A stretch of DNA of 34,978 nucleotides from Candidatus Sulfopaludibacter sp. SbA3 (GTDB taxonomy: Bacteria; Acidobacteriota; Terriglobia; Bryobacterales; Bryobacteraceae), in assembly GCA_945900935.1 (NCBI GenBank), contig CAMDKT010000002.1, forward strand, positions 1-34,978. The letters run 5' to 3'. Shown here one piece after another: positions 21,365-25,600 of this stretch. The position numbers and the translations under genes are program-made. How positions within the stretch are numbered: the stretch's first letter is position 1; every line of letters begins with the position of its first letter. The notes beneath the pieces are model-generated. The model searched no databases, had not been told where the DNA came from, and saw only the letters and a list, made by a program, of their open reading frames with translations.

Positions 21365-21595
21365 ATGCCGCTTCAGCCACGCGACAAACTCGGCCCCTAC
21401 GAAATCCTCGCGCCCATCGGCAAAGGCGGCATGGGCGAGGTGTGGAAAGCGCTCGATCATCCGCATTTCTGCCCGATCTTCGATGCCGGCCTTGACTATC
21501 AAGTGTTGGCGTGTGCGGATGGCTCGCCGGTCAAGGGTCCCATGGAGACGGCGGGAGCGAACCGCGGCGGAAAGCGCCGGTGGGGAAATGAGTGA
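21365..21595 (+). pseudogene. Ser/Thr protein kinase stub (N-terminal glycine loop joined to a later hinge segment)
   Basis: 'MPLQPRDKLGPYEILAPIGKGGMGEVWKA' joined directly to 'LDHPHFCPIFDAGLDYQVLACADGSPVKGPM'. The Lys/alphaC segment and the catalytic lobe are absent. Confidence 0.75.
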
Positions 21596-21908
21596 AATCA
21601 TCGGGCTCGTCAGGGCTGCCGCCGGGATCAAGCTCTTGTTCCTGCCCCATGCGGTCCGGCAGATGGCGCGCCCGGATAGAATGATTACAGTGGAGGATGT
21701 TCGAAACTGTATTTTTGACGGGGAGGTGATCGAAGACTATCCCGAAGACGCGCGTGGGCGCAGTTGCCTGCTACTTGGAACCAGGGATGCCGGCCGGCCC
21801 CTCCATGTAGTGTGCGCTCCCAAGGCCGGTTATTTGTCGATCATCACCGCCTATCAGCCGGATCCGAAAGAATGGGAAACCGATTGGAGGACCAGGAGGC
21901 CTTTATGA
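21588..21908 (+). CDS. DUF4258-domain protein (putative toxin-like partner)
   Basis: 'LLFLPHAVRQMARPDRMITVEDVRNCIFDGEVIEDYPEDARGRSCLLLGTRDAGRPLHVVCAPKAGYLSIITAYQPDPKEWETDW'. Confidence 0.82.
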   Translation: MSEIIGLVRAAAGIKLLFLPHAVRQMARPDRMITVEDVRNCIFDGEVIEDYPEDARGRSCLLLGTRDAGRPLHVVCAPKAGYLSIITAYQPDPKEWETDWRTRRPL

Positions 21909-22117
21909 AATGCATGCACTGCCAAGGGACGATGGGCCGCGGCTCCGCGCCATTCCACATTGACCGCAACGGATACCACCTCTCCCTTGATGCCGTTCCG
22001 GCGTGGGTGTGTGGACAATGCGGAGAGCCGTACTTCGAGGAGCGGGAGGTGGAGTCGATTCAGAACCTGTTGATGCGGGTGGACGAACAGATGGCAAGGT
22101 TAGCGCCGGCTGCGTGA
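21905..22117 (+). CDS. YgiT-type zinc finger protein (MqsA N-terminal-like)
   Basis: 'MKCMHCQGTMGRGSAPFHIDRNGYHLSLDAVPAWVCGQCGEPYFEEREVESIQNLL' with two CxxC motifs. Start overlaps the upstream stop. Confidence 0.88.
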   Translation: MKCMHCQGTMGRGSAPFHIDRNGYHLSLDAVPAWVCGQCGEPYFEEREVESIQNLLMRVDEQMARLAPAA

Positions 22118-22795: not shown

Positions 22796-23665
22796 GTGCC
22801 GTCACGGAAACACCAACTAACAGCGCTGTTTGATCGATTCGCTATCGACTTATCTTCAGTGGATGGTGTGTCGGAGGATATCGTACGTTGCCCCCTTTGT
22901 TTGAGGACGTTTGGTCGGGGCGCGATTGCAGATCCGAGCGACGACGGCCTCAGCATAGAGCACATTATTCCCTTCTCGCTCGGCGGCAAGGAAATTACGT
23001 TGACGTGCCGTCACTGCAATAATCGCACTGCTTCGGACGTCGAGGCGCACTTCGTCCGAATGGTACGCGCGGCTGACTGGAGCAGCGGTGACGGGTCAGT
23101 GCTAGGGGGAAGATTTCGGATCGGCGAAGATGCGCTTCCGCTAAAAATATCGTGGACCGACGGCAAGCGCCCCGTCGAGTTCAAAGTCCCTGGCGGCAAG
23201 CATGAAGTACTCGAACAGTATCGTCAAAGGCTCGCGAAGTTCGGTCCAGGAGACACTTTCAACTTCACTGTGAAACTCAATTACAAAGAAACCAATGCGA
23301 AGCGAGGATTAATCCGTATTGCTTACCTTACGCTGTTTCACGTCTTTGGCTACAAGTACATTCTCCCAGTCGCAGGAGAGCAGCTTCGAACAATTATTCA
23401 CAAAGGTACCGCAGAAGAACTCAAGCCTTTTGGCATCCGGATCGGTGATGTTCAGGAAGTAAAACAACAACCCACCATCAGGATATTGCCAGTGCCTTTG
23501 GAGGGTGAAAGAGCCGCATTCCTCGTCTTGCTACGCCTCCAGACCGCGCAGACTAGGTATCACGGGATTCTCATGCCGGGGCCGGACTTGCTCAACGACA
23601 CCGACGTTCTCTCGAAGCAGGCAGGAGTGGCGAAGAAACTCAGCGGCAAACGGTTTTCACTATAA
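22796..23665 (+). CDS. HNH endonuclease domain protein
   Basis: 'VRCPLCLRTFGRGAIADPSDDGLSIEHIIPFSLGGKEITLTCRHCNNRTASDVEAHFVRM': CxxC, H..H and CxxCN zinc/HNH pattern, then a ~200 aa uncharacterised C-terminal part. GTG start. Confidence 0.82.
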   Translation: MPSRKHQLTALFDRFAIDLSSVDGVSEDIVRCPLCLRTFGRGAIADPSDDGLSIEHIIPFSLGGKEITLTCRHCNNRTASDVEAHFVRMVRAADWSSGDGSVLGGRFRIGEDALPLKISWTDGKRPVEFKVPGGKHEVLEQYRQRLAKFGPGDTFNFTVKLNYKETNAKRGLIRIAYLTLFHVFGYKYILPVAGEQLRTIIHKGTAEELKPFGIRIGDVQEVKQQPTIRILPVPLEGERAAFLVLLRLQTAQTRYHGILMPGPDLLNDTDVLSKQAGVAKKLSGKRFSL

Positions 23666-24075: not shown

Positions 24076-24480
24076 TTAGGACTCGTAGCCGCTTAATAGG
24101 AGGAGGCGATCATAGTCGATGATCCCAATGCGAAGGCGGTTAAGCCAACCCGACCGGCCCAGGAAATTGCGCGTGAACCCCGCGTCTTGAGCGAAGAAAA
24201 CGGCCGCCGGGAACTCGATGCCAAGGGTATGAATCGTAACCTCGTGCTCGTATGCCACAAAAAATCCCGCCATGGTGCGAAACCGTTGTGTCCGGCCCGC
24301 CTCGACATCCAATCCAAGCTCTTCTCCGTACCTGCGTTCGAAGATGCAGTGTGCCGCTCCGGTATCAAGCGTTGCTATCAACGCGACATTTTCATTGCCT
24401 ACGGACAGCTCGGTGGGGATTTCAATCCCGTTCTCGGACGCATAGTGGCACGAAGCCGCAAACTCGATCAGAATGGGCAT
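24076..24480 (-). CDS. single-domain retropepsin-like aspartic protease
   Basis: 'VALIATLDTGAAHCIFERRYGEELGLDVEAG' (DTG active site) and 'FTRNFLGRSGWLNRLRIGIIDYDRLLLLSGYES'. Confidence 0.8.
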   Translation of the reverse strand: MPILIEFAASCHYASENGIEIPTELSVGNENVALIATLDTGAAHCIFERRYGEELGLDVEAGRTQRFRTMAGFFVAYEHEVTIHTLGIEFPAAVFFAQDAGFTRNFLGRSGWLNRLRIGIIDYDRLLLLSGYES

Positions 24481-24807
24481 TTACCAACCCGGAACGAACG
24501 GGAGTGAATCCTCGGGAAGCACATGCACCAGAAACGGAACATCGATTCCGGCGGCCTTCGCCGCGGCAAATGCCTTGTGCCCATCCACGTTCGCGGCAAT
24601 CAAGCGGTCGCCATCCACAACGATCCATTGGTCCGCATATCCGGCGCGATTTTCCCTGATCCAATTCATCTCGCGCCGTCTATCGCGAGACGGAACCATT
24701 TTGACGGTAGGATCTTGCTGAAGGCCGTCCGCGAAGCGCAGTACTTGCTCCTGCTTCGTCGGCGGCAGGCGGCGAACTCTGTCCAGAATGGCTGCTTCGA
24801 GGCTCAT
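24481..24807 (-). CDS. DUF5678-domain protein with a bacterial two-helix N-terminus
   Basis: 'MSLEAAILDRVRRLPPTKQEQVLRFADGLQQ', then 'MNWIRENRAGYADQWIVVDGDRLIAANVDGHKAFAAAKAAGIDVPFLVHV'. Stop is immediately adjacent to the protease ATG. Confidence 0.8.
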   Translation of the reverse strand: MSLEAAILDRVRRLPPTKQEQVLRFADGLQQDPTVKMVPSRDRRREMNWIRENRAGYADQWIVVDGDRLIAANVDGHKAFAAAKAAGIDVPFLVHVLPEDSLPFVPGW

Positions 24808-24881: not shown

Positions 24882-25379
24882 TCAGGGAGTGGCTCCGTAC
24901 TTCAAGTGAGAGGATAGAATGGCGCATGACTCTTCGGGTTTACTTCGATCCACTCGCACTACGATGGAAAACTGGCCGCTCACACTTCTGACTTTAAGTA
25001 GGTCTGACTCCTTCACCGGAATCGCCCGGCCGGATGCAATCAGCCGGATTATTCCAGCTTCGTCGGTTGGCACGTCTCCCTGGTGCTGCCGAAAGTAGTC
25101 AGCGGTCAAGCACATAGTTTGCCGGTTTGGGTAGGCAAAAACAATCGATGTCTCTGGGTCAACGCTGGTTTTTCCTCCCGAGCTAAACAGCATGACGTAG
25201 ATAATAAAAGCCACGTTTGCGAGGACGAAGATAGCGACGAACTGTCCGGCGGTTAGACCGGATCTCGCCGGAGGTGGCTGGAATCGCTCCTCAAACCTTC
25301 CGAAAAGTTGGCCCCCACAACGCCCACAATGCTGGAAGTTATCCTCCCAGACCATCTGACATTTCCCGCATTGCTTCAT
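24882..25379 (-). CDS. zinc-ribbon, single-TM hypothetical protein
   Basis: 'MKQCGKCQMVWEDNFQHCGRCGGQLFG' (two CxxC), TM 'AGQFVAIFVLANVAFIIYVMLF'. Confidence 0.65.
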   Translation of the reverse strand: MKQCGKCQMVWEDNFQHCGRCGGQLFGRFEERFQPPPARSGLTAGQFVAIFVLANVAFIIYVMLFSSGGKTSVDPETSIVFAYPNRQTMCLTADYFRQHQGDVPTDEAGIIRLIASGRAIPVKESDLLKVRSVSGQFSIVVRVDRSKPEESCAILSSHLKYGATP

Positions 25380-25600
25380 GCTTCTTTCCTTATCGGGCAA
25401 TGTTCCCCCATACCCGCGGCAAATGCCTTGTGCCCATCCACGTTCGCGGCAATCAAGCGGTCGCCATCCACAACGATCCATTGGCCCGCATATTCGGCGC
25501 GATTTTCCTTGATCCAATGCCTTTCGCGCCGCCGATCACGGGACGGGACCATTCTGATTGTGTCAAACGCTCATTTTACCGCCTGCCTGATCATACCGGA
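25380..25600 (-). pseudogene. deleted second copy of the DUF5678 gene
   Basis: Minus-strand translation 'RMVPSRDRRRERHWIKENRAEYAGQWIVVDGDRLIAANVDGHKAFAAGMGEHCPIRKEA*'. 71 bp exactly identical to copy A (25414-25484 = 24561-24631). N- and C-terminal parts missing. Confidence 0.85.

Follow-up and report, generated by a model that had tools for sequence, protein, structure and literature searches.

We describe a pair of small adjoining genes on the minus strand of a 34,978-nucleotide (nt) contig of Candidatus Sulfopaludibacter sp. SbA3 (CAMDKT010000002.1; this whole stretch is referred to below as the window), the first encoding a DUF5678 protein and the second a single-domain aspartic protease of the retropepsin type. 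We tentatively favor the view, drawn from sequence comparison, that the two genes constitute a toxin-antitoxin (TA)-like, self-contained and mobile-looking operon, in which the DUF5678 protein would serve as antidote and autoregulator and the retropepsin as effector. A bolder proposal, to which we give slightly less credence, is that the pair may represent a new TA or abortive-infection class with a retropepsin as toxin and a modular antidote, which would bind through DUF5678 and a Gly-Gly-Trp (GGW) tail and whose N-terminal head would have been swapped between five or more antitoxin families. Most known type II toxins act as RNases, gyrase poisons or modifying enzymes. If the proposal is true, proteolysis by an enzyme of the HIV-protease type would join the list of type II TA toxin activities, DUF5678 would gain its first function, and many small uncharacterized bacterial 'aspartyl protease' genes would have a candidate role. 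The idea lends itself to direct testing, since the pair is tiny and catalysis depends on a single Asp. Literature searches for a retropepsin TA system or a DUF5678/retropepsin pairing found nothing, and a search for DUF5678 itself found no relevant paper.

Recurrence of the gene pair across genomes

The window represents one of the 735 contigs in a 5.8-Mb draft genome (G000) whose closest named relatives are Acidobacteriota of the Bryobacterales/Solibacter type, and two further pairs are present in the same genome (contigs C31 and C155). At the genus level, a DUF5678 gene is located immediately 5' of every intact close homologue of the protease, the exceptions (L019 and the fragments L003 and L015) all being truncated. 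A scan with motifs of this protease subfamily only, covering 84,980 species, returned 80 loci, all from Acidobacteriota (a restriction that, given these motifs, is not a finding) and nearly all paired; the unpaired cases are contig ends, truncations and frameshifts.

From this single locus, an initial annotation of the window had proposed a two-component module, an idea that depended on the two families co-occurring elsewhere. An even sample of 396 Acidobacteriota genomes was searched independently with a protease profile and with the Pfam DUF5678 model, and the protease was detected in 20 genomes, DUF5678 in 24 and both in 18 (hypergeometric P 4e-24), which leaves the idea unrefuted. A Pfam-detected DUF5678 gene lies within 400 nt upstream of 44 of the 50 protease matches in this sample, and four more (L119, L189, L190 and L191) have a sub-threshold DUF5678 upstream, which brings the total to at least 48; of the remaining two, one (C151) is a fragment at a contig edge and the other (L192) is truncated. 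Conversely, 44 of the 67 DUF5678 matches are located directly upstream of this protease subfamily and eight more directly upstream of very different retropepsin-like genes (with DTG in L143 and L158, DSG in L142, and DCG, DGG or DAG in L170, L179, L184, L185 and L187), making 52 in total, while two precede protease remnants (L166 and L183); distant retropepsins and remnants were in part counted by inspecting the sequences, and several of the divergent ones were assigned by motif only. The association of DUF5678 with retropepsins thus extends far outside a single subfamily, and the proposed two-component module is strongly supported.

The gene order is fixed, as the partner always comes first and the protease second in 113 non-redundant pairs. 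No recurring gene family was found beside the pair in the flanks of 82 loci in either direction, so the pair is a two-gene unit. The same layout occurs on a Methylobacterium plasmid, where a short DUF5678-like ORF (open reading frame), recognized by eye and without a Pfam match, precedes a PF13650 protease.

Other accounts of the arrangement were set aside. A chance overlap of ORFs is ruled out by conservation in dozens of genomes, and a three-component system that would include, for example, a PIN or RelE toxin gene was rejected on the same survey of 82 flanks. The correlation between partner and protease distances (Mantel r 0.49) was given no weight, because linked genes correlate anyway.

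The protease and its two-domain partner

The initial annotation had described a DUF5678 protein of 108 amino acids (aa) followed with no gap by a 134-aa protease of the retropepsin-like fold with a single DTG motif. Both ORFs, the abutting stop and start codons, the fold and the motif were confirmed. The features of the locus, all on the minus strand, are given below with the evidence for each.

24481-24807, minus strand: DUF5678 partner gene (antitoxin-like), first of the pair, 108 aa, TAA stop; ORF list, PF18929 match at E 6e-4, PF18929 matches in 98/102 homologous partners
24076-24480, minus strand: single-domain retropepsin-like aspartic protease gene, 134 aa, second of the pair; ORF list, PF13650 match at E 4e-5, fold matches to APRc 5c9f (E 7e-6) and HIV-1 protease
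24478-24483, minus strand: partner TAA abutting protease ATG (0 nt gap, same frame); median gap 3 nt in the 113 homologous pairs
24715-24801, minus strand: VapB/DUF2281-like helical hairpin, partner residues 3-31; weak NF050009 TA_VapB match (E 0.12), two helices in the model
24526-24639, minus strand: DUF5678 domain core, partner residues 57-94; Pfam match, beta-beta-alpha-beta in the model, block pLDDT (predicted local distance difference test) ~90
24484-24501, minus strand: partner C-terminal tail PFVPGW (consensus at the very C-terminus PFGGW); Gly 79/86 at the penultimate and Trp 79/86 at the final position
24358-24366, minus strand: catalytic DTG triad, protease residues 39-41; Asp 86/86, Thr 80/86, Gly 84/86
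24154-24162, minus strand: hydrophobic-Gly motif LGR (second retropepsin signature), protease residues 107-109; Leu 76/86, Gly 84/86, Arg 83/86
~24346-24348 and ~24244-24246, minus strand: protease Cys45 (85/86) and His79 (82/86); alignment of intact proteases
25414-25557, minus strand: truncated duplicate of a DUF5678 gene segment, 144 nt; 92% DNA identity to 24561-24704, 81% protein identity over residues 33-84

The match of the protease to PF13650 (Asp_protease_2) is over the curated cut-off, and the protein has one DTG and one LGR motif, the latter within FLGR at residues 106-109. Its AlphaFold model has the retropepsin fold (block pLDDT up to 98), and the best fold matches in the PDB, APRc of Rickettsia conorii and HIV-1 protease, give target-normalized template modeling (TM) scores of 0.6-0.7. 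The closest PDB sequence is also that of APRc (E 0.01, ~20% identity). In the alignment of 86 intact proteases the catalytic Asp is invariant and LGR nearly so, as are Cys45 and His79, which nevertheless lie outside the retropepsin catalytic signature; this conservation indicates that enzymatic function is under selection. Its sequence and predicted fold place the protein among the bacterial retropepsins (clan AA, family A2 type), as a new member of that group.

Among characterized relatives, APRc (RC1339; PMC4140852; PDB 5c9b/5c9d/5c9f) is likewise a single-domain bacterial retropepsin, but it is only distantly similar to the window protease, and the portion of that report considered here describes no DUF5678 partner for it. 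RimB (PMC11957791) and the secreted retropepsin-like enzymes of Pseudomonas (PMC12239564) are bacterial retropepsin-type aspartic endopeptidases as well. RimB also works within a protein complex; unlike the protease considered here, however, it trims polyglutamate from RpsF, acts with RimK and has no antitoxin-type partner (PMC11957791).

In the five divergent paired loci with DCG, DGG or DAG in place of DTG, which form a subfamily of their own, the DUF5678 partners end near R-I-Y-A/S-C, and these retropepsin-like proteins are possibly altered in catalysis.

The window partner scores 20.0 bits against PF18929 (DUF5678), slightly under the curated cut-off of 23.2 bits, and its assignment to the family is supported by its homologues, 98 of the 102 aligned partners matching at E <= 0.01 (best E 7e-21). 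The protein has two domains, a VapB-antitoxin-like helical N-terminus, which the initial annotation had overlooked, and the DUF5678 domain behind it. Similarity to NF050009 reaches E 0.0017 among the homologues. In the model, the DUF5678 domain consists of a helix, two strands, a helix and a strand, followed by the C-terminal tail. The C-terminal half of the partners is constant, PFGGW being the commonest ending, and GGW forms the terminal residues in 59 of 113 partners (start codons of the partners were set by rule). A comparison with the PDB found no solved relative of DUF5678, either by sequence or by fold. Two tandem DUF5678 domains stand ahead of one retropepsin in the partners L122 and L129 (and the overlapping L145/L165).

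Exchanged N-terminal heads, proposed mechanism and competing explanations

The N-terminal domains of 102 partners, classified with Pfam and NCBIfam, comprise 23 AF2212-like, five VapB, three RelB-like and two ParD domains and one each of DUF433 and Phd, with best matches at E 5e-8 for ParD, 3e-11 for RelB-like and 2e-17 for DUF433. Three more partners (L038, L048 and L123) have AbrB-like heads by eye, and the AbrB domain is probably among those exchanged. Whereas the N-terminus varies among antitoxin domains, DUF5678 and the GGW tail persist. The head classes require at least nine changes on the protease tree, with unassigned heads counted as a class of their own, and the Phd and RelB heads appear in two places. 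A DNA-binding head that is exchanged while the effector-binding tail stays constant is typical of type II antitoxins.

The AF2212 family (COG2880) has been described as an AbrB-related antitoxin of PIN toxins (PMC2701414). In the host genome, an AF2212-like protein is encoded directly before a MazF/PemK gene (C427; PF02452, E 3e-21) and another directly before a frameshifted PIN-like gene (C290). In another genome, a DUF5678 gene is followed directly by a Fic/Doc gene, and a retropepsin is absent (L186; G089:C30, ~92023-92600; PF02661, E 1e-14), which places DUF5678 in the operon of a classical toxin. Taken together, these arrangements indicate that the retropepsin occupies the position held elsewhere by a toxin.

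The distribution of the module resembles that of TA systems too. Only 20 of the 396 Acidobacteriota genomes (5%) carry it, and where present it is multi-copy, with up to eight protease and ten DUF5678 matches per genome and tandem copies at L010/L016, L051 and L060. Many copies are decayed by frameshift or truncation (L084, L087, L088, L090, L096, L099, L183, L190 and L191).

With the type II systems (VapBC, ParDE, Phd-Doc and MazEF, and antitoxins of the AF2212-like, VapB, ParD and Phd types), the pair shares small, abutting and co-directional genes with the antitoxin-like one first, an antitoxin-type head on a constant C-terminal part, a patchy and multi-copy occurrence, decay and unlinked flanks. 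An antitoxin-family DNA-binding domain is found in homologous partners, the window partner having only the weak VapB similarity given above. The pair differs in having DUF5678 as the C-terminal part and, in place of an RNase, gyrase poison or Fic enzyme, a putative effector that is an aspartic protease of the retropepsin fold. Because the protease belongs to no known type II toxin family, the pair is not filed as a type II TA system, although it is organized like one. The TA-like role offered by the initial annotation is therefore retained as an analogy, which has gained from the exchanged antitoxin heads, the toxin position, the patchiness, the copy number and the decay, but which does not extend to the identity of the downstream protein.

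Under the TA-like reading, the N-terminal head would dimerize and bind the operon's own promoter, as in type II antitoxins, while the DUF5678 domain and tail would bind the protease and keep it inactive, either by blocking its dimerization or by occupying the substrate cleft. Loss of the partner, through degradation or titration under stress or infection, would allow the retropepsin to dimerize and to cleave cellular or invader proteins, resulting in slower growth or aborted infection. The protease would then fill the place held by an RNase (PIN, MazF or RelE) in ordinary modules.

Several observations weigh against this reading. An AlphaFold model of a read-through fusion of the two proteins (TAA as Gly, 94-row alignment) has two good domains with no confident packing between them, and its predicted TM score (pTM) of 0.59 is about the value expected of two independently placed domains, though the one-residue linker may prevent docking; the C-terminal tail is poorly predicted in this model (pLDDT ~51). 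The N-termini of 53 of 86 partners matched no named antitoxin family, though many look helical and of the DUF2281/VapB type, and for at least nine DUF5678 genes no retropepsin could be seen. Among established type II toxins, no aspartic protease was found. Mobility, moreover, is inferred from the patchy distribution: two scans of viral contigs and one phage search returned no relative, and plasmids yielded no member of the close family and a single divergent alphaproteobacterial pair.

The main rival is a switch based on regulated proteolysis, which we regard as unlikely though deserving serious attention. Here the DUF5678 protein would be the substrate, its head would act as a repressor of its own or other operons, and the retropepsin would cut the DUF5678/tail region on a signal and thereby change transcription, with no toxin involved. 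Cleavable repressors encoded beside their protease have been proposed earlier for the COG2856 Zn-peptidase/Xre pairs (PMC2701414), in which a small protease beside a DNA-binding partner is treated as TA-like, as here; those pairs, however, consist of a metalloprotease and a helix-turn-helix partner, are often fused, and are non-homologous to the window pair on both sides (PMC2701414). A constant C-terminus under a swappable DNA-binding head would be equally expected of an inhibitor and of a substrate tag, and the catalytic residues are conserved. However, the folded, constant DUF5678 domain and its conserved tail look more like a surface for binding than like a disordered linker meant for cleavage, patchiness and decay are more in keeping with a selfish or defence module that the cell can dispense with than with a regulator, and the flanks of the 82 loci contain no conserved target operon.

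TA-like modules often act in phage defence, and the same parts could form an abortive-infection system in which phage infection is the trigger and the retropepsin acts on proteins of the host or the phage. One of the distant paired proteases, L120 (1387-1848, plus strand), matches the PADLOC model PDC-M52B over nearly its full length (E 2e-5), which possibly links retropepsins to candidate phage-defence systems, and other paired proteases match PDC-M08B weakly; the B component of both candidates resembles a retropepsin. We nonetheless consider this explanation improbable, since the window protease matches the PADLOC candidates only weakly (E 0.007), the likeness is confined to the protease side, no partner matching any PADLOC model, the flanks are not enriched in defence genes, and the PDC entries are themselves unproven candidates.

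Somewhat less probable again is a role as substrate adaptor, in which the partner head would pair with homologous antitoxins (VapB, Phd, ParD or AF2212 types) of other TA systems and DUF5678 would deliver them to the retropepsin for destruction. The partner N-termini are indeed antitoxin dimerization domains of many kinds, and suitable targets exist in the host genome, which has 26 PIN matches as well as AF2212-headed MazF and PIN-like operons. Yet a search of that genome found no closely matching VapB N-terminus beyond that of the window, and the free-standing AF2212 copies there are distantly similar at best, so that cognate heterodimer targets are not obvious. Least plausible is a housekeeping maturation protease with DUF5678 as its folding chaperone or subunit and no TA logic: characterized bacterial A2-family enzymes do act with other protein factors (PMC11957791), but a presence in 5% of genomes, multiple and pseudogenized copies, unlinked flanks and the swapping of antitoxin domains do not fit such a role.

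Neighboring genes in the window

The truncated DUF5678 duplicate, which the initial annotation had also overlooked, lies ~0.85 kb upstream of the pair, and its sequence suggests that it was left behind by a second module or by recombination. Between it and the intact DUF5678 gene is an ORF for a zinc-ribbon, membrane-protein-like product (24885-25415). About 2 kb from the pair, on the plus strand (21483-22117), a gene for a DUF4258 protein (PF14076, E 1e-20) is followed by one for a zinc-ribbon protein with weak similarity to a YokU-like putative antitoxin, and these two genes probably form a separate TA pair. An HNH_5 endonuclease-type protein (PF14279, E 7e-9) is encoded beside the pair on the opposite strand (22796-23665, plus strand).
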